Virus record (IMG/VR): IMGVR_UViG_3300044641_007115
Span: 62,001-126,000 of that record
DNA length: 64,000 nucleotides
Direction: 5' to 3' (one strand)
Source: a virus
Shown: positions 6,369 to 53,500 of the stretch, in pieces
Layout: the number at the start of each line of letters is the position of its first letter
Position numbering within the stretch: position 1 is the stretch's first letter
The notes under the pieces: model-generated
The model's database searches: none
What the model saw: the letters and a program-made list of their open reading frames with translations, nothing else
What the model was told of the DNA's origin: nothing
Made by a program: the position numbers and the translations under genes

Positions 6369-7163
6369 ATGCTCAGCTTTCAATCTTTTCTGGCCGAAGT
6401 GTCGAACGCGGAAGCGACCGTAATCAATCTTCTTCGTCTGGCCGATAAACCCGGTACTCCGCAAGAAGGTGCCGTCGCCTTGGCCCAAGCCAAAAAACTG
6501 GCCGCGAAACACGGCTTGAATATCGATGACTTGCGTGCCAAGATGAACGCTCAGCCGCCCCGATCAGCATCCAGCGGCGGATACGATCCACGAAAGAGCG
6601 AAGGTGTGGATGCTGTGTTCGCGATGTGGGAAGCCACCATTCGCGACGCTGATGACCATCATCATGGGTTCCAGTTCACCAAGATGGCCGGTAGTGGTTC
6701 AGACATTTACCGCATCTACAAGAGTTCCAAGTATCCTGATTACGAACTCCGCATCTTCCTCTATCACTTTGAACTGTGGAAGAAAGATCAGGAGATTGCC
6801 AGTGGCACCGGCCACGGTCGAGTAGGCGCATTCCGCATGGTTCTGATTTCGATGGACTACATCAAACGGATCACAGAATGGGCGGAACAAATCCGTACCA
6901 TCGCGGAGAAGGCCGGATACGTGGTCTTCAAAGAACCCGCCGGTCATAACGGATATGAGACATGGTTGCACCACAAAAAGAACAATCGCTTCATCGTGCG
7001 CATCTATGGATACAACACCGACAAAAATGATCGCAGTCGGGGTTCAGCCGTCGCGTTCGATGAGAAGTCCAGTGTACCTATTTTCGCCAAAGCTACAGAA
7101 GACAACCCAAAATCGATCAAGACATTTACCGCCGCTTTGAAAGCCAACAAACCGGTAAAATAG
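6369..7163 (+). CDS. candidate packaged protein: capsid-targeting N terminus + DUF2786-like domain
   Basis: 264 aa. It starts MLSFQSFLAE, matching the T4 capsid-targeting sequence (MKTYQEFIAE) and ending in the L-A-E form cut by the T4 prohead protease. Residues 15-55 (INLLRLADKPGTPQEGAVALAQAKKLAAKHGL) match the helical DUF2786 pattern. Two alpha/beta parts follow, the last (AEKAGYVVFKEPAGHNGYETW) similar to a segment in the protein at 7828-9339. A late signal with 6-nt spacing fits expression during virion assembly. Function after injection is unknown. Confidence 0.7.
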   Translation: MLSFQSFLAEVSNAEATVINLLRLADKPGTPQEGAVALAQAKKLAAKHGLNIDDLRAKMNAQPPRSASSGGYDPRKSEGVDAVFAMWEATIRDADDHHHGFQFTKMAGSGSDIYRIYKSSKYPDYELRIFLYHFELWKKDQEIASGTGHGRVGAFRMVLISMDYIKRITEWAEQIRTIAEKAGYVVFKEPAGHNGYETWLHHKKNNRFIVRIYGYNTDKNDRSRGSAVAFDEKSSVPIFAKATEDNPKSIKTFTAALKANKPVK

Positions 7164-7167
7164 AACA

Positions 7168-7482
7168 ATGGAAGGAATCACGACCGATTACTACGATTGC
7201 TCCTGTCACTCTTCGGACCACACGTTGCGGTTCACGCTACACGAAGAGCACATGGGAGACGAACCGGGACTGTACAGTGAAGTACAACTTCAACAATACC
7301 GCCCGTGGTATACGCGCATTTGGCCCGCAATCAAATACATCTTTGGTTACGAATGCCGGTATGGTCATTGGGATTGTTTCCTCTTCGAAAAGGAAACCGC
7401 CATCCGCATGCGCGACTTACTCAACCGGTATCTGAAAATGCTCGAAGAGCACGAAGCTAAGACTTCGCAAGGATCTGATTGA
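7168..7482 (+). CDS. hypothetical protein, 104 aa
   Basis: Starts 4 nt after the stop of the packaged-type protein. The product begins with a Cys/His cluster (YYDCSCHSSDHTLRF), then HEEHMGDEPGLYSEVQL, and ends in a charged helix (FEKETAIRMRDLLNRYLKMLEEH). It could be a small metal-binding or virion accessory protein. The last 26 nt overlap the convergent minus-strand gene. I recognise the general look from other phages but cannot assign a function. Confidence 0.65.
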   Translation: MEGITTDYYDCSCHSSDHTLRFTLHEEHMGDEPGLYSEVQLQQYRPWYTRIWPAIKYIFGYECRYGHWDCFLFEKETAIRMRDLLNRYLKMLEEHEAKTSQGSD

Positions 7483-7825
7483 TTTTCTCTTTGTAATTCT
7501 CCACCGGCAAAACGTGAATTGGAACGTGTTCCGTATCCACCATTTTCCAATGGCGTCCCCAATTGTATTGTTTGAAGTTGTGCCCGCGAACAATCTGACC
7601 ACGATTGACTTTGACTAAGCCAATCTTCTCCATCTTCAGAATGCTCTTCAATTCGTTCTTGTTCGCGCCGGGGACATATCCCTCTTTGTCTTTCTTCGAT
7701 ACCGCAACGATCTGCCTGAACAGCTTGGCGTCGTTGACATTGAACACGACACCGCCGGGCAACCGAATTTCCTTCCGTTCCTTTGGTTTGTCTTCCGCTT
7801 CGTTAAAGGCTTGAAAAGATTTCAT
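7457..7825 (-). CDS. candidate packaged protein with capsid-targeting-like N terminus, 122 aa
   Basis: The N terminus MKSFQAFNEAE resembles the capsid-targeting sequence, with a possible cut after AE. ATG 7825 follows the upstream stop by 2 nt, so it is in one unit with the DUF2786-like gene at 7828-9339. The rest (IRLPGGVVFNVNDAKLFRQIV, GYVPGANKNELKSILKMEKIGLV, WGRHWKMVD) looks like a small winged-helix-type alpha/beta domain, which is tentative. Confidence 0.6.
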   Translation of the reverse strand: MKSFQAFNEAEDKPKERKEIRLPGGVVFNVNDAKLFRQIVAVSKKDKEGYVPGANKNELKSILKMEKIGLVKVNRGQIVRGHNFKQYNWGRHWKMVDTEHVPIHVLPVENYKEKINQILAKS

Positions 7826-7827
7826 CA

Positions 7828-9339
7828 CTAATCCTTCGGATCGTTGAATTTGTTCTTGAACTGGTTCATCGCCTTCAGAAGTTCTTCAGCGGTATGGCCG
7901 TCTTTCAACGTCAGCGTGCTGTTGCTACCCATACCCATATTCCAATGTTTCTGAAGTGACCAGCGGCCCGTTTTCGGATCAACCACGGCGAAATACTTGC
8001 CGCCTTTGCTGCTGAAATACTCTTTCGTCGGATCGGGCCGATCCAACACTTTGTCGTCCGGGCGGAATCCGAACTGGCCCAAGATGTTGACGATCTTGTC
8101 GAAACCCATTTCGGCTTTCTTCATCAATGCTGATAGCGACCGCTCTAAGGTGTCGGCATCCTTACCCTGTGCTTTGTCACCCAACAGAGATTTGATGTCG
8201 TGGGCGGGCCGCATACCGCCGCCGGGACCCTCTTTACGGACGAACTCAGCCGTAATCATCCACCAGACTTCATCGTCTTTCTTCATCGCGCCGCGCATCT
8301 TGTTCGGACCAAACATGACCCGAAGCATTTCCACGGTGTTTGTCCAGATGTGCTGATTGCCTTGTTTGTCGAAGGGACGGAATCCGAAACTGGTCAACAC
8401 CTTGACCATGTTGTTGATTTCGTTGTGAACCGAGAACGCGGCTTCTCCGCTCTTTCTCTTTGTTGTCACCCACTTCTCAAAAGATTGTGGTCCTTTGTTC
8501 TTCTGGTCGAAACGCTTTGTGTCCAGTTTCCACTTGTTCGAAGCGCTTCCACCCTGACGGGTTTCGTGCCACCAAGCACCATCCGGCCCGACAATCAGCC
8601 GGTATGGATCACTGACCATTTCGCGGTACGATTCTCCCGTGTTGGCGGGTTTCAAAACATATCCGTGCTTCTCTGCGACTCGAACAACAGCTTCAGCTTC
8701 AGCGGTCAGCTTTTGAGCGTTGTTGTATGCCTTCTGTTCCTTTTCCCGTTGTTCCGCTTCCCGTTTGACTCTCAACCCCTTCCAGTCCACGGAGCGAAGC
8801 GCACCGATCAAATCCTGTGCGTTTGTACTCTTGGCAAGCACGTCATCCTTCGAATAACCGCCCGGACGACCGGTCGGGTCGGCATGGACCAAATACCACA
8901 TGATCGGACGTTCTCTTTCATTCTGGATGGGGAGAACAACCAACACAAAGGTTCCCTCATGAGATACACCCCACACAACAACTTCGGAACCGAACTGAGC
9001 ATAGGTGGTCCCGGAACGCATCCGTTCCCCTTTCCCTTTATGGCGGGCACCGGGGACATGACTCATGATGGTGTTGATTTCGATGAACAGCCGGTCAGCC
9101 GGATGAGTAGACGCGGAATTCGACGGCGACCGGCGCACGCTCTGTTGCTTCATCATCGACCGGGCGACTTCCAGATCGATATTGTTCTTTTTCGCTAGTG
9201 CGGTGGCTTGCGCTAAAGCGACTTCGCCTTCGTGGGGAGATCCGGGACGATCAGCAAGCGCCAATAGCTTGATGATGGTGTCCATCGCGTCCCGTTCGCT
9301 CAGAAGTTGTTCACGAAGATAGGTCAGAAAGCCACTCAT
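7828..9339 (-). CDS. candidate packaged protein with DUF2786-like domain, 503 aa
   Basis: N terminus MSGFLTYLREQLLSE fits a capsid-targeting peptide with a possible cut after LSE. Residues 19-60 (TIIKLLALADRPGSPHEGEVAL onward) are a clear DUF2786-like helical pair, homologous to that of the gene at 6369. A central alpha/beta part (AQFGSEVVVWGVSHEGTFVLVVLP) is followed by a Lys/Glu helix and three similar units of the form ...G(F/Y)...W..TV.. (KHGYVLKPANT, SFGFRPFDKQG, QFGFRPDDKVL) with KGGKYFAVVDPKTGRWSLQK. The late signal TAAATA lies 6 nt before the start. Possibly an injected multi-domain protein; target unknown. Confidence 0.65.
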   Translation of the reverse strand: MSGFLTYLREQLLSERDAMDTIIKLLALADRPGSPHEGEVALAQATALAKKNNIDLEVARSMMKQQSVRRSPSNSASTHPADRLFIEINTIMSHVPGARHKGKGERMRSGTTYAQFGSEVVVWGVSHEGTFVLVVLPIQNERERPIMWYLVHADPTGRPGGYSKDDVLAKSTNAQDLIGALRSVDWKGLRVKREAEQREKEQKAYNNAQKLTAEAEAVVRVAEKHGYVLKPANTGESYREMVSDPYRLIVGPDGAWWHETRQGGSASNKWKLDTKRFDQKNKGPQSFEKWVTTKRKSGEAAFSVHNEINNMVKVLTSFGFRPFDKQGNQHIWTNTVEMLRVMFGPNKMRGAMKKDDEVWWMITAEFVRKEGPGGGMRPAHDIKSLLGDKAQGKDADTLERSLSALMKKAEMGFDKIVNILGQFGFRPDDKVLDRPDPTKEYFSSKGGKYFAVVDPKTGRWSLQKHWNMGMGSNSTLTLKDGHTAEELLKAMNQFKNKFNDPKD

Positions 9340-9345
9340 AGTAGC

Positions 9346-9351
9346 TATTTA
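9346..9351 (-). promoter_or_regulatory. late-promoter-like TAAATA, 6 nt before start
   Basis: The coding strand reads GGTAAATAGC, with the hexamer ending 6 nt before ATG 9339. No Shine-Dalgarno is seen. Confidence 0.6.
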
Positions 9352-9368
9352 CCATTTCCGGGAACAGT

Positions 9369-9680
9369 TCAGGCTACGGTCCAGACATCCCGCTGATGGT
9401 AGTAATTGCCAATCGCGGACAGAACCGGAGTCAATTCCTTCCGAAGTGATGAAAGATTTACCGACTCCCGGACATCCAGTGTTACGTCCACGATAGCGAT
9501 CTGTGATGTCGTTGGACTCCGATCAATCCACGGGCCGGGCACACGGAACTTCCGTCGAACGAAATTTCCATACCCCCGGTCAAACTTTCCGATGTAGACA
9601 GTCGCATACGGATCAGTCGGTTTTGAAAGAACTGGAATCGCCGCGACGATTGGCAGAGCGAACAATTGCCGTCGTGTCAT
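9369..9680 (-). CDS. putative exported protein with twin-Arg-like signal, 103 aa
   Basis: Start MTRRQLFALPIVAAIPVLS reads as a signal peptide: RR followed by a hydrophobic core. The mature part (YATVYIGKFDRGYGNFVRRKFRVPG, SQIAIVDVTLDVRESVNLSSLRKELTPVLSAIG) is beta-rich and has no cysteine. It would be exported to the periplasm, by Tat or Sec. TAAGTA lies 5 nt upstream, a weak variant of the late signal. A longer frame from 9746 exists but lacks the signal at its start. Function unknown. Confidence 0.55.
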   Translation of the reverse strand: MTRRQLFALPIVAAIPVLSKPTDPYATVYIGKFDRGYGNFVRRKFRVPGPWIDRSPTTSQIAIVDVTLDVRESVNLSSLRKELTPVLSAIGNYYHQRDVWTVA

Positions 9681-9856
9681 ATTGCTACTTAGATTAACGC
9701 AGGGGCGTGACATCCGGCTTAGCGTACCGGAAATGAAGACTGCCATCGCGCGTCAGGCAATCTAACGTCGGACTGTTGATGGAATGTCCGCGCACCGGTT
9801 GATCGATCACTCAATCAACCACCTGAGATCAGTTTATCATGATCCCGGTCGGCTGA

Positions 9857-9888
9857 AAAACAAAAAGGCCGGACCCGAAGGCCCGGCC
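9857..9888 (-). terminator. strong UUCG-capped terminator
   Basis: On the minus strand a 9-bp GC-rich stem with one G-U pair and a cUUCGg loop (9867-9888) is followed by TTTTTG and more T. It ends the Ro60-like gene's transcript. The same hairpin sequence recurs at 50286 and 60557. Confidence 0.9.
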
Positions 9889-9907
9889 AGTTTTGTTCCC
9901 CGCCTGT

Positions 9908-11566: not shown

Positions 11567-11604
11567 GTTATTTTGACCTCTTTTCAAACACTACACCGTG
11601 TTAA

Positions 11605-12276
11605 CTACTCCTGTTCATCTTCCAAACTACGCATCACGTCTTCGAAAGGCACCAGTTCGGCCCGGCCTTCTTCCACTTCATTGATGCGTTCCTTCATCTC
11701 TGCCAGAAACTCTTCGTTCTCTTTAGGACCGCCGTGAAAGCTGATATCCCAATAGATTCCTTCCAGAAATTCCAACAGACTGAGAACTCTTTTGCCGCTG
11801 AGAATTGATTCCGTCCAGTTCCGGCGGATCGTAAACGTCTCATCGATCACAACCGGGATATGCGCCAACTGGTACATCGGTGAGTACGAAACCGACCAAC
11901 GTTCTCCTTGCGCATCCACTCCAATGAAGTCCGTCGAAATGTTGAAATCATTCGTGCCATCATGCTCGAAAACTTCACCGTAGGAACTGACAACCAATTT
12001 GACCAGCGATTCTTCCAGATCCTTACGTGGCTCACGGGCCTGTGCATGGAATTCATCGATTGCCCCACACCATGCATAATGTGCAACAACTTCCTTGAGA
12101 GTCGGATGTTGATCCACAATCGCAAAAATCTGACCCAAAGTCACGCCGTCGTCAACCTTAACCCGAACTCGAAGATCGGTCAGGCGAAACGGCTTTTCGA
12201 CGTAATCCTTCTTTTCCTTTCCATCCCACTCATACGCCGCTAGGCGGTCGCTGTGGAACACAACGTAATCACTCAT
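11605..12276 (-). CDS. hypothetical protein, 223 aa
   Basis: Starts MSDYVVFHSDRLAAYEWDGKEKKDYVEKP with CTGGAG upstream, overlapping the macrodomain gene's end by 4 nt. Alternating alpha/beta prediction: strands DLRVRVKVDDGVTLGQIF, VVSSYGEVFEHDG, FIGVDAQGERWSVSYSPMYQLAHIPVVID, then an acidic helical tail (ENEEFLAEMKERINEVEEG). It sits between the Ro60-like and macrodomain genes in one minus-strand unit. No family recognised; one reading is a globular cytoplasmic accessory factor. Confidence 0.6.
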   Translation of the reverse strand: MSDYVVFHSDRLAAYEWDGKEKKDYVEKPFRLTDLRVRVKVDDGVTLGQIFAIVDQHPTLKEVVAHYAWCGAIDEFHAQAREPRKDLEESLVKLVVSSYGEVFEHDGTNDFNISTDFIGVDAQGERWSVSYSPMYQLAHIPVVIDETFTIRRNWTESILSGKRVLSLLEFLEGIYWDISFHGGPKENEEFLAEMKERINEVEEGRAELVPFEDVMRSLEDEQE

Positions 12277-12713: not shown

Positions 12714-12717
12714 CGGA

Positions 12718-13137: not shown

Positions 13138-13170
13138 ACATCCATTGTCTATCCGATACCACAGCGCACA

Positions 13171-13205
13171 AAAACAAAAACGCCCCGGCGGAACTCACCG
13201 GGGCG
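13171..13205 (-). terminator. hairpin terminator downstream of 13236 gene
   Basis: Stem CGCCCCGG at 13181-13188 pairs with 13198-13205 around a 9-nt loop. The minus strand continues into a T-rich run (complement of 13171-13180), so it should end transcripts of the VWA unit before the lipoprotein gene. It has some T on the plus side as well. Confidence 0.85.
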
Positions 13206-13235
13206 TTTTGTCGTCGGGAACCAGTCCCAACTCTA

Positions 13236-13559: not shown

Positions 13560-13561
13560 TC

Positions 13562-15854: not shown

Positions 15855-16289
15855 ATGAAAACATTCCAAAGATTCCTTCGAGAGTCATACGAACTCTTGC
15901 CCGGCACCCTGCTCTTGATCGTTCAGGGTGGCGGATTCAGCCGTCGTATCCAGTATGGCGTAACGACCGGGCGGGTGGTTTTCAAAATCAACAACCTTCA
16001 TCAGCACGGTCATGAGTTCAAAGGCACACCGACACATGAAGTGATCGACATCGGCGGAATGCAAACTGAAGTTCTTTTGCCGGGCGTCAAGCCCGGCGAC
16101 ATCATCCAAAGCCATTTGCAGTTGGATGGTCTTCCCGGTGGGTCGATAATTGAATCCACCTTGCCGGGGTCGGACGGCCAGTACAAGAAAACGGATTCGA
16201 TGAAGTGGACCAAGGTTGGTTCTCCGACCGGCGCGAAATTTGACTCGTTTCACTTTGACGCATCGCTTAAATACAAGTGGGTCAAATAA
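15855..16289 (+). CDS. candidate packaged protein with capsid-targeting N terminus, 144 aa
   Basis: MKTFQRFLRE is almost the T4 capsid-targeting peptide (MKTYQEFIAE). The remainder (ELLPGTLLLIVQGGGFSRRIQYGVTTGRVVFKI, VIDIGGMQTEVLLPGVKPGD, PGGSIIESTLPGSDGQYKKT) is a beta-barrel-like domain. GAAGTCC precedes the ATG; TAAAAC is 8 nt upstream. It would be placed in the capsid and cut after RE; what it does there is unknown. It is followed at once by a tail-tube-family gene. Confidence 0.65.
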   Translation: MKTFQRFLRESYELLPGTLLLIVQGGGFSRRIQYGVTTGRVVFKINNLHQHGHEFKGTPTHEVIDIGGMQTEVLLPGVKPGDIIQSHLQLDGLPGGSIIESTLPGSDGQYKKTDSMKWTKVGSPTGAKFDSFHFDASLKYKWVK

Positions 16290-18039: not shown

Positions 18040-18251
18040 GTGCATTCTATTTCCACTTCAACAAACCAGCCACACAGCGCGCCGGGAAAGTGCAAGTCAG
18101 TCTGCACTACAAAGACACTTGTCATGTGATCGATAACATTGACTGTCGCGTGCCCGTGCGCGGGCGCATACGCAAGACTCAACCCCGGTTTGTCATGGCC
18201 GGGAAAGCGAAGTCCGTTCGCTTTGAAGATGGCGTGGCGGTGATCGAATGA
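18036..18251 (+). CDS. hypothetical protein, 71 aa
   Basis: Starts in the ATGA overlap with the small membrane gene and ends in an ATGA overlap with the next. MSAFYFHFNKPATQRAGKVQ, LHYKDTCHVIDNIDCRVPVR and KTQPRFVMAGKAKSVRFEDG describe a compact, basic, beta-rich protein. A DNA- or nucleoprotein-binding role is conceivable from its charge. No family assigned. Confidence 0.6.
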   Translation: MSAFYFHFNKPATQRAGKVQVSLHYKDTCHVIDNIDCRVPVRGRIRKTQPRFVMAGKAKSVRFEDGVAVIE

Positions 18252-18571
18252 AAGTCTACCAAGACCCGGTATACCGGTTCAATTTCGACAAGATGACCCG
18301 CCGGGACATGTGGGCCTTTTTGTTGATGCTGGTGACGGCTCCGTCGCTGGCCGTTCAAGCGTGGAAGATGTACAAGGCACCGAAGACGGTTGCCAGTGCA
18401 TTGATGGTTGGCTACAAAGGAACAACTCCATTTGAAGCCGGTTTCTTCTATGCGCCATACATTCCGCTGCAAATGGTTTCGCCCATTCCTACGACAAAAC
18501 CGCCGGTGGCGTTCAAAACTCGATACGGAACATATTCAGGTTCGAGTTACTATAGAAAGGTACAGCTATGA
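18248..18571 (+). CDS. small protein resembling the C-terminal segment of capsid protein gp23
   Basis: 107 aa. The second half, VGYKGTTPFEAGFFYAPYIP then FKTRYGT, closely follows the conserved end of T4-type major capsid protein gp23 (VGYKG..PYDAG.FY.PY(V/I)PL ... GFKTRYG). MKVYQDPVY at the start could match the KVYVDPYA that precedes it there, with an insertion of about 40 residues carrying a hydrophobic helix (FLLMLVTAPSLAVQAW) between them. A full gp23 is about 500 aa, so this is a mini-paralogue or relic. ATGA overlaps on both sides show it is kept within an operon. A head decoration or assembly role is inference. Confidence 0.6.
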   Translation: MKVYQDPVYRFNFDKMTRRDMWAFLLMLVTAPSLAVQAWKMYKAPKTVASALMVGYKGTTPFEAGFFYAPYIPLQMVSPIPTTKPPVAFKTRYGTYSGSSYYRKVQL

Positions 18572-18874: not shown

Positions 18875-20392
18875 GTGGTCGTCATTCGCAAAGTCAACGA
18901 ATCCTATCTTCAGGTTGACGCCGATCCCGGAATCGTTCGAGAGATCAGCGAAGTTCTAACCTTCGAAGTCCCGAACGCACATCACATGCGCCGCATGATG
19001 GAGAAGCGCGGGCGCAAGATGTACAACAATTGGGATGGGCGCATCAAGCTGTTGGACTATCGCAACGGCGCGGCCTATCTTGGTCTTCACCGTTTCATTC
19101 GTCAGTACTGCGAAGAGAACAACTATGAAGTCCAGTACGAAGACAACTTCGATTCAGAAAACCCTTTCTCCCTGTGGGAAGCCCGTAAGTTCTTCGAGTC
19201 ACTAAACCTGTCTGTACAGGGTAAACCGCTGGATGTGCGCGACTACCAAGAGCGTGCATTTGTTCACGGGGTTCAGCGCCGCCGGGCCATTCTCGTTTCT
19301 CCCACGGCGTCCGGCAAGTCGCTCATCATCTATCTTCTGTTGCGGTATCTGCAAGAGTACAAGATGGGAGACACGGGGAAAATTCTTGTCATTGTTCCCA
19401 CGACATCGCTGGTCGAACAGATGTACTCCGACTTCGCCGATTACAGCGCGGCGGACCCGAATTGGAATGTCGAAGAGAATGTCCATCGCGTCCACTCCGG
19501 GGCGGAACGAAACACCGATCTTCCAATCACTGTGACGACGTGGCAGTCCATTTATCGGATGAACGATGAGTGGTTTTTACAATTCCACGGGGTTGTCGGT
19601 GACGAAGCCCATCAGTTTGACTCCAAATCGCTCAGCAAGATTATGTCGTCGCTGGTGAACGCGGAGTATCGTTTCGCCACGACCGGCACATTGAAGGGAT
19701 CGATGGTCAATGAAATGGTGTTGGAAGGTCTGTTCGGTCAGGTCTACAACGTCACCACGACCCGCGAACTCATGGATGCTGGTACGGTCGCGGATCTGAC
19801 AATCAAAGCGCTGGTGCTCCGTTACTCCGATGAAGATTGTCAAATGGTCCGGGGTGCCGACTTCCATGCGGAGCGGGACTACATTTCCGCACACACGACC
19901 CGCCGGAACTTTGTGCGCAATCTGGTGTTGAGCCTGAAAGGAAACACGCTGGTTCTTTTCGCTCTTGTCGATAAGCAGGGGAAGCCGCTGTATGAGTCGA
20001 TCATGGAGCGGGTGGAACCGGGCCGAAAGGTCTTCTATGTCTCCGGTGAGACGGAAGCCGATGACCGGGAACAGGTGCGTCAGATCACGGAACAGGAAGA
20101 GAACGCCATCATCATTGCCAGCTACGGCGTCTTTTCGACCGGTGTCAATATCCGCAATCTGGACAATCTGGTATTCGCCGCCGGGACGAAATCGAAGATC
20201 CGTACCCTACAAAGCATCGGTCGCGGCCTTCGGAAAAGTGATCGGAAATCCACGGTGACGGTCTTCGACATCGTGGATGATTTGAGCGTTAAGTCTAAGA
20301 AAAATTTCGCCTTAATGCATTTCGCCGAACGCTTGGCGTTCTATGCGGCGGAACAGTTCCGGTACAAGATTTACCGGATCGACCTGTCGTAA
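18875..20392 (+). CDS. uvsW: UvsW DNA/RNA helicase
   Basis: 505 aa superfamily-2 helicase. The N-terminal part (HHMRRMMEKRGRKMYNNWDGRIKLLD) matches the UvsW substrate-binding domain. Motifs: LVSPTASGKSLIIY (Walker A), VGDEAHQFD (DEAH-type), FATTGTLKG (III), GVFSTGVNIRNLDNLVFA (V) and LQSIGRGLRKS (VI). UvsW unwinds R-loops and branched DNA, shifting replication from origin to recombination mode. GTG 18875 is used; the ATG at 18871 is out of frame. About the length of T4 UvsW. Confidence 0.95.
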   Translation: MVVIRKVNESYLQVDADPGIVREISEVLTFEVPNAHHMRRMMEKRGRKMYNNWDGRIKLLDYRNGAAYLGLHRFIRQYCEENNYEVQYEDNFDSENPFSLWEARKFFESLNLSVQGKPLDVRDYQERAFVHGVQRRRAILVSPTASGKSLIIYLLLRYLQEYKMGDTGKILVIVPTTSLVEQMYSDFADYSAADPNWNVEENVHRVHSGAERNTDLPITVTTWQSIYRMNDEWFLQFHGVVGDEAHQFDSKSLSKIMSSLVNAEYRFATTGTLKGSMVNEMVLEGLFGQVYNVTTTRELMDAGTVADLTIKALVLRYSDEDCQMVRGADFHAERDYISAHTTRRNFVRNLVLSLKGNTLVLFALVDKQGKPLYESIMERVEPGRKVFYVSGETEADDREQVRQITEQEENAIIIASYGVFSTGVNIRNLDNLVFAAGTKSKIRTLQSIGRGLRKSDRKSTVTVFDIVDDLSVKSKKNFALMHFAERLAFYAAEQFRYKIYRIDLS

Positions 20393-20672: not shown

Positions 20673-21251
20673 ATGGAGCGCAAGAAAAATCAGTACGTGG
20701 ACAACAAGAAGCTGTACGATGCCCTAGTCGAATGGCTGAAGGACCGGAAGGCGGCACAACGCAATAAGCAAAACCTCCCTCCGCTCCCCGACTATATTGG
20801 TGAGTGTATCTTGTTGATGGCAAACCGTTTGGCTCAAAAAGCCAACTTCGTCAACTACACTTTCAAAGATGACATGATCGGCGATGCGATGGAATCGTGT
20901 TTGCGGTATCTGCACAATTTCAACCCGACGCGGAGCACCAACGCTTTTGCCTATGTGACACAGATCCTTCACAATGCGTTTGTGCGCCGGATTCAGCGGG
21001 AACGGCGGAACAGCTATACCAAGGCGATGTTGATTAGCCACGGTATGCCGGGGTATTCGGTGCAAGAAGGCGACGAAACGGAATACACCAACACCTACGT
21101 CGATTTCCTTCAAGAGAATGTCACCGACGTGATTGAAAAGTTCGAGTCCGCCAAGAAACGGAAGAAGGACCGGCAACAGAAGAAGTTGGGTCTGGAAAGT
21201 TTCTTCGTGGAAGAACCAACCGAACAAGTAGTCGGGGCCGGTTCACAGTAA
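20673..21251 (+). CDS. 55: late-transcription sigma factor gp55
   Basis: 192 aa. PPLPDYIGECILLMANRLAQKANFVNYTFKDDMIGDAMESCL and FNPTRSTNAFAYVTQILHNAFVRRIQRER follow T4 gp55, a short sigma70-family factor that lets RNA polymerase read TATAAATA late promoters with the gp45 clamp as activator. Its presence supports reading the TAAATA sites here as late promoters. AGGGATGG precedes the start. The basic/acidic tail (KRKKDRQQKKLGLESFFVEE) may hold the clamp-binding end as in T4 (inference). Confidence 0.93.
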   Translation: MERKKNQYVDNKKLYDALVEWLKDRKAAQRNKQNLPPLPDYIGECILLMANRLAQKANFVNYTFKDDMIGDAMESCLRYLHNFNPTRSTNAFAYVTQILHNAFVRRIQRERRNSYTKAMLISHGMPGYSVQEGDETEYTNTYVDFLQENVTDVIEKFESAKKRKKDRQQKKLGLESFFVEEPTEQVVGAGSQ

Positions 21252-31067: not shown

Positions 31068-31458
31068 TCTGTTCAAGACCAAGGAAGACTTGGCAACAGA
31101 GATTGACGGCCAACGGGAACTGGTGGAAGCACCCGGCCCGTGGGTCATCAATCGCATGGTTTCATTGTTCCCGGATTGTGTTGGTGATGTCAACGAAATC
31201 AACACAATCCAAGGGATCGATGCGGTCATGCAATATGACTTCCTTCGGTTCCGGTTGAAACCGCGCGCGAAGACGTTTACACCGTGGCTTAAAGCGGAGA
31301 AGCCGACCGAAGATGTGAAGTTGGTCATGGAGTATTACAAGTACTCCGAAGAGAAGGCGCGCGAAGCGCTGGAACTTCTGACTGACGATCAGTTGGAGTT
31401 GATCCGGGAGTCGTTTTTCGAAGGCGGGGTAGTGAAGAAAAAAGGAAAGAAAGACTAG
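31042..31458 (+). CDS. 62: clamp loader small subunit gp62
   Basis: 138 aa. MELKDVLTSLFKTKEDLATE, APGPWVINRMVSLFPDCVGDVNEINTIQGIDAVMQYDFLRFRLKPR and the YYKYSEEKAREALELLTDDQLELI helix follow the small-subunit family, somewhat shorter than T4 gp62 (187 aa). Position directly after gp44 supports it. It starts inside the small ORF at 30951 with GGAAGAA nearby. Confidence 0.85.
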   Translation: MELKDVLTSLFKTKEDLATEIDGQRELVEAPGPWVINRMVSLFPDCVGDVNEINTIQGIDAVMQYDFLRFRLKPRAKTFTPWLKAEKPTEDVKLVMEYYKYSEEKAREALELLTDDQLELIRESFFEGGVVKKKGKKD

Positions 31459-31682
31459 CTTTTCGGCGGCGTTTGCGGAATCAACTTCGCAATACGCGGT
31501 TTGAAGATTTTCTGATCGCCCTTGTTTGTATGCGCGACGGGCTGACCATGTTCGTCGCGCGAAAATCCTTTGATCGTCGCCCGGCGATTTTTGAATTTGC
31601 CCACCATCAACTCATCACCGACTTCCAGCTTGGGAAGTTCTAGTTCGGCGATGAACTCAGCGAAAGATTTCACGGGCACCAT
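31455..31682 (-). CDS. candidate packaged protein: capsid-targeting N terminus + small beta domain, 75 aa
   Basis: MVPVKSFAEFIAE matches the capsid-targeting peptide with the I-A-E cut site of the T4 prohead protease. The following LEVGDELMVGKFKNRRATIK and QKIFKPRIAKLIP is a KOW/SH3-like barrel, a domain I associate with similar packaged proteins in marine T4-like phages. TAAATA lies 5 nt before the start. It is convergent with gp62, overlapping its last 4 nt. Confidence 0.7.
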   Translation of the reverse strand: MVPVKSFAEFIAELELPKLEVGDELMVGKFKNRRATIKGFSRDEHGQPVAHTNKGDQKIFKPRIAKLIPQTPPKS

Positions 31683-31687
31683 GCTAG

Positions 31688-31693
31688 TATTTA
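31688..31693 (-). promoter_or_regulatory. late-promoter-like TAAATA, 5 nt before start
   Basis: Coding strand AACTAAATACTAGC then ATG 31682; the hexamer ends 5 nt upstream. Confidence 0.6.
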
Positions 31694-39216: not shown

Positions 39217-41805
39217 GTGCAACCTTTCTACACATGGGTCGGACGGCATCGCGATGAAATTTTGGTTCGGGAAGTGCGGGATGGGAAACGCAAGAATTTT
39301 CAAGTCAATCATAAGCCCACCCTCTATACACCGGCCCCGCCCGGCGAATCCTACGAACTGACCACGCTTGAAGGTCGCGGCGTCGTTCCTCTTCATTTTG
39401 ACTCCATGAGTGCCGCCCGGCGGCACGTGCAAGAATCTGCCGGGGTTGACGGATACACGTTGTACGGCAACGACATGTATCAGTATGTCTACATTGCCGA
39501 AAACTACCCCGGCCACATTGAATACGATCCCAAACAGATCGTTATCGCCAACGTCGATATCGAAGTCGGAGCGAAGAACGGGTTCCTGTCGGCACTCAAC
39601 ACCGTTGATACGCCGGAAGAAGTGACAGCTATCACGATGAAGCTGTCCACCGAAAACAAGTTCCGGGTGTTCGGTATGAAGGATTTCATGCCGACCGAAG
39701 AGATCGAATACATCCATTGTGACGACGAAGGCGATTTGTTGGAACAGTTCTTGGCCGCGTGGATCGCCACGTACCCGGACGGCATGACCGGCTGGAACAT
39801 CACCGGTTACGATATCCCGTATTTGGTCAATCGGATCACCAAGCGGCTGGATAAGAAGCGCGCCGCCAAGCTGTCGCCTTTCGGACACATCCGTCAAATC
39901 ACATTGCGCCGGTTCGATTCGGAGTACATCAGCTATTCCATTGCGGGCGTCAACAATCTTGACTACCGCGAACTCTACCGCAAGAACGTTCTTGAGCCGC
40001 TGGAATCATATCGGTTGGATTACGTGGCGGAAATTGAGTTGAGTGAACGCAAACTGGACTACTCCGAATACAGGAATCTGTGGGAGATGTACCAGAAGAA
40101 TCACCAGAAATTCATCGAATATAACGTCCATGACGTTCGTCTGGTGGATCGGCTGGAAGCCAAGAAGCGCATCATCGATCTGCAAATGCTTGTCGCGTAT
40201 CGCTCGAAAGTGAACATGGAAGACGTGATGAGCCAAGTCCGCACGTGGGACGCGGCCATCTACAACCATCTTCGAGACAGGAACATTGTGGTGCCGTTCC
40301 GCGAAATTGACGACAAAGATACACAGTATGAAGGCGCGTTCGTCAAAGAGCCGGTCCCGAAGCTCTACAAATGGGTTGTCAGTTTCGACGTGAACTCTCT
40401 GTATCCGTCGTTGATCGCCGCATTGAACATCGGAGTCGAAACAAAGATTGACCGGGAAATGTGGGAACCCGCACAGCGGAAAGTCGTTGACACGATGAGT
40501 GCTCATCGCATGCTCCAAGGCCCACCGGAATGGTCTTTATTTGAAGGGTTGAACATTTCGATGGGATCGAACGGGGCGACCTACGACAGAGGGAAGAACT
40601 CGATTTTCACCACCATGATTATTGAGTTGTTGGCCGCGCGTAAGGAATTCCGTAAGATCGCGGAGTCGTCTGAAAAGGAACTCGAAGAAATCAAGCGTCA
40701 GTTGAAAGATACGCCGGATGACCCGGAACTGAAGCGGCGCTACAACGAACTGGACTACACCAAGAGTGAGTTCGACCTGAAACAGAAAATGACCAAGGTC
40801 CTGAACAACAGTCTCTATGGTTGTGTGGGAAACGAGTTCTTCCGGTTTTACGACACTGAGAACGCGGAAGCCATCACTGTCACCGGCCAGTTCGTCATTC
40901 AGTACGTCGAACAGTCGTTGAATCGCTTCTTGAACAAGAGTTTTGGCACCGGTGATTTCAACTATGTCATCGCGGCGGACACGGACTCGAACTACATCAA
41001 CCTTGATCCAATGGTTCAGAAGTATCTTCCGAATGAGAAGGACCCGAAGAAGATCGTGGACTACATCGACAAGGTGTGCAAGAAGATCATCGAACCGGAG
41101 ATTGACCGGATCTTCGCGGAGATTCGTGACGTGTTCATCCACGGCAATGGCAACTACCTTGCAATGAAGCGCGAAGTCATCGCGGAGAAGGGCATCTGGA
41201 CGAAGAAGAAGCGCTATGTGCTGTCGATTTGGGACAAGGAAGGTATCCGCTACGACAAGCCCAAATTGAAGTACACCGGGCTGGAAATGAAGCGGTCAGA
41301 TACGCCGAAGACGTGCCGGGTTGCAATGATGAAGTGCTGTGAGTACATCATGCACGGGACACAAGAAGAACTGTATGAGTATGTCGGCAAGTACTATCAG
41401 GAATTCATGGCATTGCCAATTGAGGATATTGCGAAGCCCAAAGGCGTGAAAGAATTCAAAGAGAAGTACATTGACCCGCGTTCGGTGACGGCACATGGGT
41501 GCCCGCAACATGTTCGCGCGGCGCTGTGGCACAACCACTTGATTAAAGAGAAGGGATTGGAATCGGTATACCCGCCCATCCTCGAAGGTGACAAGATCAA
41601 GCTGGCCTATCTCAAGATGCCCAATCCCACGGATCAGAATGCGATTGGGTTCGTTGGTAATCTCCCGCCCGAATTTGGGCTGGACAAGTATGTGGATCGG
41701 GAAGCCTTGTATGAGAAAAATTTCCTCGAACCGATGGCCCGGATCGCGGACGCGGCGGAATGGAAATTGGTCAAAAAAGCCAATATAGCTGACCTGTTTT
41801 CGTAG
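39217..41805 (+). CDS. 43: DNA polymerase gp43 (family B)
   Basis: 862 aa. Exonuclease motifs: IANVDIEVGA (Exo I), GWNITGYDIPYLV (Exo II), YNVHDVRLVDRLE (Exo III). Polymerase motifs: VVSFDVNSLYPSL (A), KVLNNSLYG (B), IAADTDSNYI (C), all intact. It replicates the phage genome with the gp45 clamp. The gene is unbroken, with no intein or intron. The C-terminal end ANIADLFS carries a clamp-binding-like peptide. GTG start. Slightly shorter than T4 gp43 (898 aa). Confidence 0.97.
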   Translation: MQPFYTWVGRHRDEILVREVRDGKRKNFQVNHKPTLYTPAPPGESYELTTLEGRGVVPLHFDSMSAARRHVQESAGVDGYTLYGNDMYQYVYIAENYPGHIEYDPKQIVIANVDIEVGAKNGFLSALNTVDTPEEVTAITMKLSTENKFRVFGMKDFMPTEEIEYIHCDDEGDLLEQFLAAWIATYPDGMTGWNITGYDIPYLVNRITKRLDKKRAAKLSPFGHIRQITLRRFDSEYISYSIAGVNNLDYRELYRKNVLEPLESYRLDYVAEIELSERKLDYSEYRNLWEMYQKNHQKFIEYNVHDVRLVDRLEAKKRIIDLQMLVAYRSKVNMEDVMSQVRTWDAAIYNHLRDRNIVVPFREIDDKDTQYEGAFVKEPVPKLYKWVVSFDVNSLYPSLIAALNIGVETKIDREMWEPAQRKVVDTMSAHRMLQGPPEWSLFEGLNISMGSNGATYDRGKNSIFTTMIIELLAARKEFRKIAESSEKELEEIKRQLKDTPDDPELKRRYNELDYTKSEFDLKQKMTKVLNNSLYGCVGNEFFRFYDTENAEAITVTGQFVIQYVEQSLNRFLNKSFGTGDFNYVIAADTDSNYINLDPMVQKYLPNEKDPKKIVDYIDKVCKKIIEPEIDRIFAEIRDVFIHGNGNYLAMKREVIAEKGIWTKKKRYVLSIWDKEGIRYDKPKLKYTGLEMKRSDTPKTCRVAMMKCCEYIMHGTQEELYEYVGKYYQEFMALPIEDIAKPKGVKEFKEKYIDPRSVTAHGCPQHVRAALWHNHLIKEKGLESVYPPILEGDKIKLAYLKMPNPTDQNAIGFVGNLPPEFGLDKYVDREALYEKNFLEPMARIADAAEWKLVKKANIADLFS

Positions 41806-46605: not shown

Positions 46606-46628
46606 GCAAAATCGGAGAGTTCCAAAGG

Positions 46629-46660
46629 GCGCTCGACAGAAATGTCGGGCGCTTTCCTTT
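46629..46660 (+). terminator. hairpin terminator with GAAA loop
   Basis: Ten-pair stem (one G-U) at 46629-46638 with 46643-46652, loop GAAA, then TTTCCTTTTG. It lies directly before the Acb1-like start codon. Confidence 0.8.
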
Positions 46661-46667
46661 TGTTAGG

Positions 46668-47144
46668 ATGGTTTTAGTGCAAGTTACAGCCTTCTACACC
46701 CGCCGAATGGTTGATCCTAAATCGGCTGATTTCCTTCAACAGTGGTTCGATGAAAATGAGATACCGAATACCATCCCGGTAGACCAACTTCACTGTTCGG
46801 TCATCACGGCGATGGAAGAGATTCCTTCCTATCGACCCGATCCGGTGCCGGTGTTGATCCGCCCCAAAGAATACCGGCTCACGTTCCTGAAGGAAGCACT
46901 GGTTATCGCGTTTGATTCGCCGATGTTGAAGCGGGCTTGGGACCGGGCGGTCCAGATGGGTGTGGGGCTGAAGTATCCAAAATACGTGGGGCACGTGAGT
47001 GTATCCTACTCCGTGCCCCTTGAGTTTGAATTGTCCGAAGTGAAACCGCCTACGTTTCCGATCCGGCTGTTAGCCGAAGAGTCCGCGCCGGTCACTCCAC
47101 TGTGGTTTAGTGCAAGCCCAACTTCTGAACCTGTAGCGGCGTAA
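46668..47144 (+). CDS. acb1: Acb1-like 2H phosphoesterase (anti-CBASS)
   Basis: 158 aa from MVLVQVTAFY. Two HxS motifs, LHCSVI (H42, S44) and VGHVSVSY (H109, S111), fit the 2H fold, and their spacing is near that known for T4 Acb1 (gp57B: His44/Thr46 and His113/Thr115). EALVIAFDSPMLKRAWDRAVQMG and LKYPKYVGHVSV also follow that family. Acb1 cleaves 3'3'-cGAMP and related cyclic nucleotides, blocking CBASS defence. The start lies 8 nt after a terminator, and no clear promoter was found. Family good, substrate inferred. Confidence 0.78.
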   Translation: MVLVQVTAFYTRRMVDPKSADFLQQWFDENEIPNTIPVDQLHCSVITAMEEIPSYRPDPVPVLIRPKEYRLTFLKEALVIAFDSPMLKRAWDRAVQMGVGLKYPKYVGHVSVSYSVPLEFELSEVKPPTFPIRLLAEESAPVTPLWFSASPTSEPVAA

Positions 47145-47886: not shown

Positions 47887-47892
47887 GTTCTT

Positions 47893-47898
47893 TATTTA
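47893..47898 (-). promoter_or_regulatory. late-promoter-like TAAATA, 6 nt before start
   Basis: Coding strand GATAAATAAAGAAC then ATG 47886; the hexamer ends 6 nt upstream. Confidence 0.6.
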
Positions 47899-47971
47899 TC
47901 GCCCGGCGTTGATATCCAAGAACATATAGCCGATCCACCCCCACCCCTACCCCTCGAAAATGATGTGTCTC

Positions 47972-47977
47972 TAAATA
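47972..47977 (+). promoter_or_regulatory. late-promoter-like TAAATA with normal leader
   Basis: TCTAAATAGA lies 25 nt before ATG 48003, giving a short leader that holds the Shine-Dalgarno GGAGG (47983-47987). This is the one late site here that is clearly not leaderless. Confidence 0.55.
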
Positions 47978-48002
47978 GAATTGGAGGTTTCCTCAAGACA
48001 AT

Positions 48003-50264: not shown

Positions 50265-50285
50265 GGTTGATTTTTTCCCTCTACA

Positions 50286-50312
50286 GGCCGGGCCTTCGGG
50301 TCCGGCCTTTTT
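50286..50312 (+). terminator. UUCG-capped terminator (second copy)
   Basis: Same 22-nt hairpin as at 9867-9888 (here on the plus strand, 50286-50307), followed by TTTTTC. Confidence 0.93.
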
Positions 50313-50340
50313 CTTTTCAACAGTCTCGTTTCGCGAAGAG

Positions 50341-50346
50341 TAAATA
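50341..50346 (+). promoter_or_regulatory. late-promoter-like TAAATA, 5 nt before start
   Basis: AGTAAATATCGGT then GTG 50352; the hexamer ends 5 nt upstream; no Shine-Dalgarno. Confidence 0.6.
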
Positions 50347-50351
50347 TCGGT

Positions 50352-51839
50352 GTGAAACGGATAATCTACGAAGCCCCGACGTGTGACCCCAACCATGTCG
50401 TTACACAATCAGATTTGGATGCTCTTGAACGGCATCTGGACAAAGTATGGAACAAGTTGGGGATCGATATTGCCTTCACGCGGCATTTCTTGGACCGGGT
50501 GAACGACGCCCGGAACGGAAAACAGATCACGCTCTGTGAACTGGCCCGAATTTTTCTGGAAACATTCCGTCAACACGGAAAGAAGTTGACCGGCATCAGC
50601 ACCCGTGATTGGGAAGCTGTGTTGTCAGACAAGATAACGAATGTGAACGTGCCGTTCGTTCTGAAACATAATGGCAAAGAAGTGGAGATCGTGGCGAAGA
50701 CGGTGATGCGGAAGCCCAATTTCCACACGCCCGATCCGAAATTGGTAGTGGCGCATTTCCGTCAGGGAGACAACAAGATGTCGAAAACATTGCGTGAGTG
50801 GACCGGTCTAGGTCTGCCTCAGAATGATCCTGTGGCCGGTGTCTATGCCGTCGATGATGTCGATGTCAACCCGTCCCAAATCGATGACCCGGAAGTACTC
50901 ACGATGTTGAACGGCTTCCTTGCGTCATTGACCAAGAAAACGTTCATCAACCCGTACTACCCGGTACAACAGGCGTTTGCCAAACTGAGCGCGGTCGGAC
51001 TTTCCTTCCAGCTTCGTGGTTTGGATTTGGGCGGCGATACGGGTGTGGTGCTCATCCCGGTTTCTCATTTTGGTGGTCGTTTGGGGCGGAACCTTGATGG
51101 GTCTTGGGCGGACAACGATGGAATTTCAGAGAAGATCCCCGGCGGCATTTTCCTGAAGGTCACTTACACACAAACCAACGGAGAGTTTGTGGTGAACATG
51201 CAGTTGGTCCCGGCGGAAGAAGGTGTGGAACTGGACACCACCGACATCGAAGAGGATGTCACTACCGGCACGTCCGATGCGACGACTGATGAGTATCCGT
51301 TCGATTCTGATTTCCAACCGACACAAGACGGAGAAACCATTTTTGATGCGGTGAACTTCGAGTCGTTCATTCAGAGGGGCCGGAAGATTGCGGAAGCAGC
51401 AAATAGTATCACTGTCAAGCCTTCGACGCGGAAGAAGGGAATGTATGATGTCATCGTCGGAAACATCCCACGGGTCACCAAGCCCACTGTGAAGGGTGCC
51501 AATGGTTATGCCAGCCGCATCGCCAAGGAAAATCCGCATATGAGTTTCACCCCGCTCAAAGAAGCGGAACTGAACGAAGCGGATGCGAAAGTGGTGTTGA
51601 ACATTCCCGGCGTTCCCTCGAACTATGCCAATTTACCGCTTGGTCGAAAGATGGATCATCACGCCGCCATCAAGAAGTTCAAGGATGAAGCCAAGCGTAC
51701 TCACTTCGGTGCAAAGGGCAAACCGATCATGAAAGCCTTTGGAGAATTCAAGCGACTAAACAATGTTAGCCAATGGTACTTCTTGGATCGCGGGCCGCAA
51801 GGGATGAAAGACGATTCCGTGGAGATTTGGTACAAGTAA
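50352..51839 (+). CDS. conserved T4-like phage structural/packaged protein, 495 aa
   Basis: GTG start by the late signal. The N part (DLDALERHLDKVWNKLGIDIAFTRHFLDRVNDARNG, then TNVNVPFVLKHNGKEVEIVAKTVMRK) is a block I recognise from proteins of cyanophage-type T4 relatives, function unknown. The middle is beta-rich with an acidic Thr linker (DTTDIEEDVTTGTSDATTDE). The C part (HHAAIKKFKDEAKRTHFGAKGKPIMKAFGEF) is helical. Followed closely by two further conserved genes and a packaged-type protein, so probably a virion component. Confidence 0.6.
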   Translation: MKRIIYEAPTCDPNHVVTQSDLDALERHLDKVWNKLGIDIAFTRHFLDRVNDARNGKQITLCELARIFLETFRQHGKKLTGISTRDWEAVLSDKITNVNVPFVLKHNGKEVEIVAKTVMRKPNFHTPDPKLVVAHFRQGDNKMSKTLREWTGLGLPQNDPVAGVYAVDDVDVNPSQIDDPEVLTMLNGFLASLTKKTFINPYYPVQQAFAKLSAVGLSFQLRGLDLGGDTGVVLIPVSHFGGRLGRNLDGSWADNDGISEKIPGGIFLKVTYTQTNGEFVVNMQLVPAEEGVELDTTDIEEDVTTGTSDATTDEYPFDSDFQPTQDGETIFDAVNFESFIQRGRKIAEAANSITVKPSTRKKGMYDVIVGNIPRVTKPTVKGANGYASRIAKENPHMSFTPLKEAELNEADAKVVLNIPGVPSNYANLPLGRKMDHHAAIKKFKDEAKRTHFGAKGKPIMKAFGEFKRLNNVSQWYFLDRGPQGMKDDSVEIWYK

Positions 51840-51846
51840 GTTTCGC

Positions 51847-52254
51847 ATGGATTTCGCTAATCTGACAAATGATAACGTGTTGCTCTACGCGATACGCGCC
51901 TACGACAACCCTTCGGCTCACGGGTCGAAGGAATTTGAAGAAGACTTCGAGCGCTTCAAATACGTCAAACGACTGTTGAAGCGCTACGTGAAGAAAGGCG
52001 TTATCAAGGAACGGCTGGTACTGAATCACATTCAAATTCTGTACAACGTTTTCGGGCTGTCATCCACACGAATTCTGTTTCTGAAAATGGAGCCGGACCT
52101 GTATCCGGCTCTGAAAACATTTTTGATCGCGATCAGTTTTATGCCGGACACGGTACCGGGAATCAATGGGAAGACGATTCGTTCGAGCGACATTATGCCG
52201 GACCCAATTCTAGTCAATCTCATTCGGAACAGCACACGGGCAATCGCAGCATGA
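51847..52254 (+). CDS. conserved protein of marine T4-like phages, 135 aa
   Basis: MDFANLTNDNVLLYAIRAYD, FERFKYVKRLLKRYVKKGVIKERLVLNHIQILYNVFGLSSTRILFLK and LYPALKTFLIAISFMP form a helical protein with a strongly kept LNH..(I/L)LYNVFG core that I know from many marine T4-like genomes. No molecular role is known. ATGA overlap with the next gene. Confidence 0.7.
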   Translation: MDFANLTNDNVLLYAIRAYDNPSAHGSKEFEEDFERFKYVKRLLKRYVKKGVIKERLVLNHIQILYNVFGLSSTRILFLKMEPDLYPALKTFLIAISFMPDTVPGINGKTIRSSDIMPDPILVNLIRNSTRAIAA

Positions 52255-52817
52255 GCATTATTGACACATGGATCGTTTATCGCGTACTTCGAATCCTCTC
52301 TACGTCTTGGGACGAAATGGATGCATTCAAGTATGGGATCATCGACGCCAGTGGTCACGTTCTCAGGAAGCAAAAGGAACTCCGAAAGTCGGAAGAGAAA
52401 AGCGCATACACGCTTTTACACCGTCTGGTTTTCAACCTGAAACGAATCTTGGAGAAATTGCCGTTCGGCAAAACCAAGCTGGCCCGGTACGCGACCGCGC
52501 TTTTCTTATTGAAAGAGCATGTGAAGACACGAAGAGGTAAATGGATGTTGGAAGAAGGATTCAAGTCATTTCTGGCAAAGCATGCCAATGAAGCCGTGGT
52601 CATCAAGGAATCCGCGCCCGTTGGCCTACCGGCTGGCCGGTACAAGATCCTAAACCATATGCTCGATGCTGACTCCCGAATTGTGAAGGCTGGATCGGTC
52701 ATCAGCGTTCGGAAACCGGTCAGAGGTCAGTTTGTGATGGGTGTGGAAGTGTTTCCGGTGATGACCACGACCGGGCAAGAACTTGCCGTCAGTCACGACG
52801 ATATTGAGGCAGTGTGA
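52251..52817 (+). CDS. conserved protein of marine T4-like phages, 188 aa
   Basis: TWIVYRVLRILSTSWDEMDAFKYGIIDASGHVLRKQKELRKSEEKSAYTLLHRLVFNLKRILEKLPFGKTKLARYATALFLLKEH is a helical block typical of proteins encoded beside structural genes in this phage group. A C-terminal small beta domain (GRYKILNHML, AGSVISVRKPVRGQFVMGVEVFPV) follows. Likely a virion or assembly factor. Coupled on both sides by ATGA. Confidence 0.7.
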   Translation: MSIIDTWIVYRVLRILSTSWDEMDAFKYGIIDASGHVLRKQKELRKSEEKSAYTLLHRLVFNLKRILEKLPFGKTKLARYATALFLLKEHVKTRRGKWMLEEGFKSFLAKHANEAVVIKESAPVGLPAGRYKILNHMLDADSRIVKAGSVISVRKPVRGQFVMGVEVFPVMTTTGQELAVSHDDIEAV

Positions 52818-53500
52818 TGAAGACCTATCGACAGTTCAAAGAAGAAATTGGCAATACCGCCGGTAGCGGGGCTATCGCTGGTATCGGGGTTGGTCCACAA
52901 GGCGAACCCGGTGTGAGTATGAAGGACGATGAGTTGCGTTCCAGTTCATTGGCGGCGAAGACTCCGGTCTGGCCGATGATGAAGCGAAAGAAGCCGACCG
53001 GTCTGGATGAAGATGTCAAACTCAATCCCGGTGAACTCAACATTCTGGACCTGTTCGTCACAGAAACACTGTTCTTGAAGGGATCAAAGGTTGGAAAGAT
53101 CAAGCGCCGGATCAGCGGCGAACAGGTGAAGTCAAGGACGCTGGAATCGTTGCTTGACAAGAAAATGATCGACTTCCAAGTCAATACCAATGTCGGGGAA
53201 GGTTATGCGGCAACCCCGTTGGGTTTCGAGTACTGGAAGAAGAGCAAGCAACTCAAAGAGGATTTGTTCGCCGGTGCGGAAGTGTTTGACGTGTCGCCGG
53301 AAGTCTTTTCGAACTGCCGTCTTGGGAAACTACGATATCATCGGTGGGCGCGGTACGTTGGCGACGACATGATCGGTCAAAAGATCCGCGACTACGGTAT
53401 TGCCAATCCGAACAAAAGCATCGTGATCCGGGACAAGCGTACCGGGGCTATGATGTTCCTACGGCACGCCGCCCTTCCGTCATTTGCTTCGTTTTGCTAG
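52817..53500 (+). CDS. candidate packaged protein with capsid-targeting N terminus, 227 aa
   Basis: MKTYRQFKEE is close to the T4 capsid-targeting peptide MKTYQEFIAE, with a possible cut at EE. The next NTAGSGAIAGIGVGPQGEPG is a linker I know from related phage proteins. Two further parts: a helical domain (NILDLFVTETLFLKGSKVGKIKRR) and FSNCRLGKLRYHRWARYVGDDMIGQ with NKSIVIRDKRTGAMMFLR, where His and Arg are frequent. Ends overlapping the convergent dehydrogenase by 4 nt. Confidence 0.65.
   Translation: MKTYRQFKEEIGNTAGSGAIAGIGVGPQGEPGVSMKDDELRSSSLAAKTPVWPMMKRKKPTGLDEDVKLNPGELNILDLFVTETLFLKGSKVGKIKRRISGEQVKSRTLESLLDKKMIDFQVNTNVGEGYAATPLGFEYWKKSKQLKEDLFAGAEVFDVSPEVFSNCRLGKLRYHRWARYVGDDMIGQKIRDYGIANPNKSIVIRDKRTGAMMFLRHAALPSFASFC

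Follow-up and report, generated by a model that had tools for sequence, protein, structure and literature searches.

The virus genome analyzed here very probably encodes a capsid targeting system of the T4 type together with an expanded set of cargo proteins, which would be packaged into the head, cut by the protease gp21 and injected into the host. One tag on at least twelve mostly unrelated proteins, some of them enzymes, suggests that a preloaded toolkit enters the bacterium together with the DNA. A T4-type capsid targeting peptide (CTS) had been proposed in a preliminary description, and this reading is supported by the presence of gp21, gp22 and gp23, by conservation of the positions mapped in T4 IPIII, by the removable nature of the module, by purifying selection and by late promoters. 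The window, a stretch of 64,000 nucleotides, corresponds to bases 62001-126000 of a virus record of 224,490 bases. As judged from the gp23 shell protein (E 9e-143), the gp22 scaffold (E 2e-65) and the gp21 protease (E 7e-38) encoded in the genome, the phage is T4-like. Its gp23 contains a plausible L/I-x-E cleavage site (...ATLLSE/GSN; here and below, a slash marks the cut), and the gp23 relatives among the matches listed share 55-59% identity and belong mostly to Pelagibacter, cyanobacterial, Methylophilales and Stenotrophomonas phages. A close isolate was not found by megablast with 24 kb of the window. Genes were called by a simple codon-usage script, which yielded 325 genes genome-wide (84 in the window, 241 in the rest), and all gene starts are therefore predictions. 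Six window genes carry the N-terminal peptide:

6369..7163, plus strand: DUF2786-like protein, 264 aa; CTS MLSFQSFLAE at 6369-6398, TAAATA at 6357-6362
7457..7825, minus strand: protein of 122 aa, no family assigned; CTS-like MKSFQAFNEAE at 7793-7825, F4 and F7 kept, without L/I-x-E
7828..9339, minus strand: DUF2786 protein, 503 aa; N-terminus MSGFLTYLREQLLSE, CTS MSGFLTYLRE at 9310-9339, TAAATA (minus strand) at 9346-9351
15855..16289, plus strand: protein of 144 aa, no family assigned; CTS MKTFQRFLRE at 15855-15884
31455..31682, minus strand: protein of 75 aa; CTS MVPVKSFAEFIAE at 31644-31682 and a 60-aa domain, TAAATA (minus strand) at 31688-31693
52817..53500, plus strand: protein of 227 aa; CTS-like MKTYRQFKEE at 52817-52846, Y4 and F7 kept, no L/I third before the cut

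The starts and peptides of all six agree with the preliminary description, and the sequence with which it had compared them, MKTYQEFIAE, is indeed the N-terminus of T4 IPII and IPIII. Three late signals had been placed at 5-6 nt, and the distance from the end of TAAATA to the start is indeed 6 nt at 6369 and 9339 and 5 nt at 31682; no late promoter was seen ahead of the gene at 15855. Aromatic residues occupy positions 4 and 7 in all six peptides (shifted by 3 in 31682). The six had also been called unrelated, which does not apply to the products of 6369 and 9339, as these are paralogues (42% over approximately the first 70 residues, E 6e-11), but holds for the others, among which no homology was detected at E 0.05. 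A gp21-type processing site (L/I-x-E) is present in 6369, 9339, 15855 and 31682 but missing from 7825 (FNEAE) and 52817 (FKEE), two proteins that may be targeted but remain uncut and whose genes each have an in-frame GTG one codon ahead of the ATG. The 503-aa protein scores above the DUF2786 cut-off (E 2e-7), whereas the 264-aa protein falls slightly below it (22.5 bits, cut-off 23.9; phrog_421 E 3e-7). The 122-aa gene lies immediately behind the 503-aa gene, and a C-terminal stretch of the 227-aa protein is common to an HTVC008M ORF (115347-116426) that begins with MKTFTDF.

The ten N-terminal residues of T4 IPIII are sufficient for packaging, and substitution and suppression experiments assigned positions 4 and 7 to targeting and positions 8 and 10 to processing, with gp21 cleaving behind L/I-x-E (PMC9026906). 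The conserved positions of the tag described here are these same four. An external pattern based on T4, with aromatic residues at 4 and 7, a hydrophobic one at 8 and E near 10, matched 13 of the 325 N-termini. The frequency at internal positions of the same proteins predicts 0.60 matches (p 1e-13), and 2000 N-terminal shuffles gave a mean of 0.67 and a maximum of five; for the strict form [FY]xx[FY][LIV]xE, ten N-termini compare with 0.10 expected. Seven of the 13 pattern genes lie outside the window. When the genome was split, 5/84 genes of the window (0.06 expected) and 7/241 genes of the rest (0.18 expected) matched, and the motif thus replicates beyond the part on which the preliminary description was based. 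Past residue 10, [FY]xx[FY][LIVMNK]xE occurs at only seven other sites of the proteome, one of them the end of gp21. A stricter regular expression gave 11 matches in this phage, three in T4, two each in Melnitz and phiM12, one each in DLP6 and S-SM2, and none in HTVC008M and T5. In T4, the motif is matched only by IPII, by IPIII and by one uncharacterised ORF of 54 aa; Alt of T4 does not fit, and the expression is consequently not the whole rule. A loose pattern that accepts L/I-x-E at any place within residues 1-10 showed no clear enrichment in this genome (26 versus 19.5, p 0.09) and was discarded as a finder.

The predicted tagged set has roughly double the size previously described and comprises at least twelve or 13, perhaps 16, proteins. 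Outside the window, it includes the following (genome coordinates; cargo functions are read from domains):

39744-40649: SprT-like peptidase (E 1e-6)
135472-136761: protein with HEVGHH, by eye probably a metallopeptidase, no match in Pfam
136761-137351: Dps-type ferritin (E 2e-20)
172453-173874: CCA-type nucleotidyltransferase with HD domain (E 5e-23)
173901-174269: protein of 122 aa, ParB-like in appearance, by eye only
212260-213108: DUF5710 protein (E 2e-12)
216078-217163: protein without assigned function
201829-202473: NMNAT/cytidylyltransferase-like protein (E 3e-6), looser tag MLSFREFVE
139309-139815: Acb1-like protein (Acb1 E 0.0014, below cut-off), looser tag MMSFSAFSRIPSLLFEE

Roughly every second tagged gene is preceded by a late promoter of its own. 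Of the 55 TAAATA copies in the genome, 30 end 5-9 nt ahead of a called start; at a distance of 3-8 nt, the signal precedes six of 13 tagged but 19 of 312 other genes (p 1e-4), counts that can be slightly inflated by a small bonus given to TAAATA in start choice by the gene caller. Both looser-tag genes possess it as well, and the tagged genes at 7825, 135472 and 172453 are located directly behind a tagged gene with TAAATA. The window also encodes a likely late sigma factor of the gp55 type, which would recognize this signal:

20673..21251, plus strand: sigma-70 region 2 protein, 192 aa (Pfam Sigma70_r2 E 2e-5)

Comparison with untagged homologues indicates that the tag is a removable N-terminal module. 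Matches of the CCA-type nucleotidyltransferase, the Dps-type ferritin and the metallopeptidase in other phages begin at query residues 7-35; most of these starts lie immediately after the tag or deeper in the protein, and a few lie within the tag. The DUF2786 family is represented in the genome by one untagged (1448-2026) and two tagged genes. Furthermore, the Acb1-like protein at 139309-139815 appears to be a diverged tagged paralogue of an anti-CBASS enzyme encoded in the window:

46677..47144, plus strand: Acb1 anti-CBASS enzyme, no CTS, no late promoter (Pfam Acb1 E 2.9e-14, PDB 7t26 E 4e-6)

This untagged Acb1 passes the Pfam cut-off (53.5 bits versus 27) and was called from 46707, but an in-frame GTG at 46677 agrees with its relative. 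Its tagged counterpart has an extension of approximately 18 residues and a late promoter, and its two H-x-S motifs (2H phosphoesterase H-x-[ST]) align with those of the untagged paralogue; the AlphaFold prediction was too poor (mean pLDDT 36) and the model was left unused. The 75-aa protein provides a further case. Its 60-aa part, predicted by AlphaFold to be a small beta-barrel domain (mean pLDDT 70; helix 7-14, then beta strands), shares 63-70% identity with segments of five ORFs on other contigs, of which four are multidomain and two contigs encode gp21, and four of the five matches begin directly behind the predicted cut. One of these ORFs (869 aa, start MRIHQITE/A) combines a cytidylyltransferase related to the 201829 gene with sigma region 4 and a GNAT-like domain, and another (start MRIKEITE/E) contains ART-PolyVal (PF18760, E 6e-9). 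A fold search with the 75-aa protein returned Tudor/SH3-like matches that were not significant (E 0.06 or worse). In the phage collection, tblastn gave no match for the 503-aa, 282-aa, 361-aa or 75-aa protein, nor for the N-terminal 60 aa of the 52817 protein.

These observations bear on the strongest competing explanation, according to which the tagged proteins do reach the prohead and gp21, but as core or scaffold parts that are degraded or left behind instead of being injected. In T4, gp21 also has core proteins among its substrates, namely gp22 and gp67 (PMC9026906), the genes adjoining gp21 start with MNIITAIRE and MKPKVQRLIE, and some of the motif-bearing genes may encode prohead core proteins. 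However, the tagged set includes enzymes that are not needed for scaffolding, such as the Dps-type ferritin, the CCA-type nucleotidyltransferase and the SprT-like peptidase, its genes are spread across the genome, and untagged paralogues exist for two kinds of them. For the set as a whole, we therefore regard this explanation as unlikely and prefer packaging of injected cargo.

For the entry of gp21 itself into the prohead, CTS-like gp21 propeptides have been suggested (PMC9026906). The gp21 C-terminus of this phage (MVEAFSRFLSELSRKH) ends in a tail, EAFSRFLSE/LSRKH, that bears the tag motif. F-x-x-F-[LIMV] was found at the gp21 C-terminus in six of seven T4-like genomes, including DLP6 (LFENFISKL), HTVC008M (AFEKFMRKVAK), S-SM2 (LFNDFLNSI), phiM12 (MFEQFLSSLKNS) and Melnitz (AFAKFLSKL), the exception being T4 itself (AYMALAEAMKKAL), whereas approximately 0.6% of the other proteins of those genomes contain it in their last 16 residues. 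Because these phages are related, the six tails are not independent and are no more than suggestive. In G008 and G012, contigs that are more distantly related, the motif was not clearly seen in gp21. The common F-x-x-F-[LIM] tail is evidence for CTS-like gp21 propeptides, and the tag allows a direct test of how gp21 enters the prohead.

The tail of gp21 also speaks against the idea that the peptides form a common N-terminal amphipathic helix serving another purpose. An aromatic-rich N-terminal helix could act in tail or membrane localisation, and a 1370-aa protein in which peptidase- and glucosaminidase-like regions were recognized by eye starts with MSKFQDFV. Yet the peptides agree with T4 IPIII at the four mapped positions, and in the strict set the acidic residue is exactly at +3 from the second aromatic, which makes such an alternative role quite improbable.

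Key codons of the tag are under purifying selection. Between 14 tagged genes and their relatives in G002, G003, G005 and G006, the tag peptides differ by 20 synonymous and eight non-synonymous changes, and at the key positions seven synonymous changes are accompanied by a single non-synonymous one (V to I). In individual cases, the peptide of the 264-aa protein is unchanged in G005 and G006, the 122-aa protein retains F4 and F7 in a relative (A6 is replaced by D), and the N-terminal 42 aa of the 144-aa protein are 98% identical in two relatives. The tag is not invariably retained, since approximately the first 35 residues of the 503-aa protein are absent in the relatives L003 and L004 and the 264-aa gene is split in two relatives in which the 503-aa protein also lacks the tag. 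Chance, or one N-terminus inherited by related genes, deserves almost no credence: although the DUF2786 pair represents two related proteins among the six, a common descent of all six was ruled out, as the other tagged proteins lack homology at E 0.05, and the controls with internal positions and with shuffles ruled out chance (p about 1e-13 to 1e-17), which also conflicts with selection on the key codons.

Other lineages seem to use different peptides. Around the multidomain ORF of L127, genes start with MRYQELLE, MYLHQLFE, MYLKELFD, MRLYELLD and MRYNELTE, and around that of L125 with MKIREITE, MKISEIME and MRIHQITE. An Alt-like pattern, which was framed after those neighbourhoods had been seen, matched 12 of 113 genes versus 1.5 expected. 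Homologous cargo appears to be tagged differently by lineage, because the relative of the Acb1-like protein in L127 begins with MRYQELLE and that of the CCA-type nucleotidyltransferase in L123 with MKIKEIF. A possible general form of the code is hydrophobic-x-x-hydrophobic-(hydrophobic)-x-E, realized as F-x-x-F-L-x-E in this phage and as I/L-x-x-I/L-x-E in other lineages. A broader proposal, which to us seems equally open to confirmation and rejection, is that each T4-like lineage has an address code matched to its own prohead core and worn by the gp21 C-terminus and by homologous cargo (NMNAT-like, CCA-type nucleotidyltransferase, Acb1-like), and that the present phage preloads more than 12 proteins, among which one anti-CBASS enzyme would be injected in addition to another that is newly made. 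The window contains one weaker cargo candidate with an Alt-like tag:

50352..51839, plus strand: protein of 495 aa; GTG start, tag MKRIIYE/A, TAAATA at 50341-50346

It shows homology to the N-terminal part of a multidomain protein of 1131 aa, L121, directly after MSYLTE (39%, E 3e-19), and to the L123 ORF 7119-9116, which starts with MKLNELFSGE (E 5e-16).

In the preferred reading of packaged and injected cargo, at least a dozen proteins starting with M-x-x-[FY]-x-x-[FY]-[LIV]-x-E would be made during late transcription, and the aromatic residues 4 and 7 would dock each of them on the prohead core. Cleavage by gp21 behind E10 (L/I-x-E) would then free the mature proteins inside the head, gp21 itself having probably entered through the same code via its C-terminal tail. 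At infection, the freed proteins would accompany the DNA into the cell and be active ahead of phage gene expression, their jobs likely being counter-defence and take-over.

As in T4 IPII and IPIII (and similarly IPI), the tag consists of about ten N-terminal residues with aromatics at 4 and 7, L/I/V at 8 and E at 10, and precedes dissimilar mature parts in a phage with gp21, gp22 and gp23. Unlike the few small restriction inhibitors of T4, however, the tagged genes number 13 (perhaps 16) and many encode enzymes. The packaged ADP-ribosyltransferase Alt of T4 has a short propeptide with L/I-x-E (MELITE/L), which MKRIIYE/A of the 50352 gene and MRIKEITE/E on another contig resemble, whereas the main tag of this phage is of the IP type; an ADP-ribosyltransferase was not detected in those tagged proteins that were scanned. 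ART-PolyVal, present in a multidomain ORF with the 75-aa-type domain, is shared with the polyvalent proteins (Iyer et al., 2017; PMC5512222), but here the proteins are separate, individually tagged and unfused. Giant phages of the SPN3US type likewise package many ejection proteins in the head that are matured by a prohead protease (PMC5694885; PMC7411985), a process predicted here from genes; SPN3US belongs to another phage group, while gp21, gp22 and gp23 mark this phage as T4-like.

The tag would offer a sequence-only route to listing what a T4-like phage injects, and it picks out enzymes otherwise not expected in a virion. T4 Ip1, Ip2 and Ip3 each inhibit a GmrSD subtype (PMC12373910), and because all three internal proteins block GmrSD restriction, the tagged proteins without assigned function are good candidates for counter-defence.

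In two relatives, the gene for the 503-aa DUF2786 protein has lost by deletion the codons for its first ~35 residues, the capsid targeting tag among them (around 9990 in L003 and at the corresponding position in L004), and the gene for the 264-aa DUF2786-like protein is broken into two in the same relatives. In a further ORF the tag motif is C-terminal, in the fashion of the prohead protease gp21:
Genome 56914-57153, minus: ORF of 79 aa that has a late promoter and ends in ...VKSFKEFVEDRR

T4 itself (L030) may encode a further gp21 substrate, as suggested by the sequence of one small ORF, in which the N-terminus is followed by GTTSGAV, resembling the gp23 sequence behind the gp23 cut:
T4 18966-19130, minus: 54-aa ORF, N-terminus MKTFKEFIKE

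Pieces of the major capsid protein gp23 were found in two small ORFs, each behind a hydrophobic, twin-arginine-like leader, and a third ORF has a similar leader:
Window 18248-18571: gp23 C-terminal part (E 6e-13), leader MTRRDMWAFLL
Genome 211335-211586: gp23 middle part (E 1e-8), leader MKFTRRGLFGL
Window 9369-9746: third ORF, leader MTRRQLFALPIVAAIPVLS

Genome-wide, the distance of the late signal TAAATA from start codons peaks at 5-6 nt upstream, as exemplified by four copies:
Window 6357-6362, TAAATA
Window 9346-9351, TAAATA
Window 31688-31693, TAAATA
Window 50341-50346, TAAATA
The corresponding peak lies ~20-30 nt before starts in T4, S-SM2, DLP6 and phiM12, whereas Pelagibacter phage HTVC008M resembles this phage with a peak at 5 nt. 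Since CTAAATA begins at -12 relative to the transcription start (PMC1524935), such spacing implies that the late mRNAs of this phage would be leaderless.
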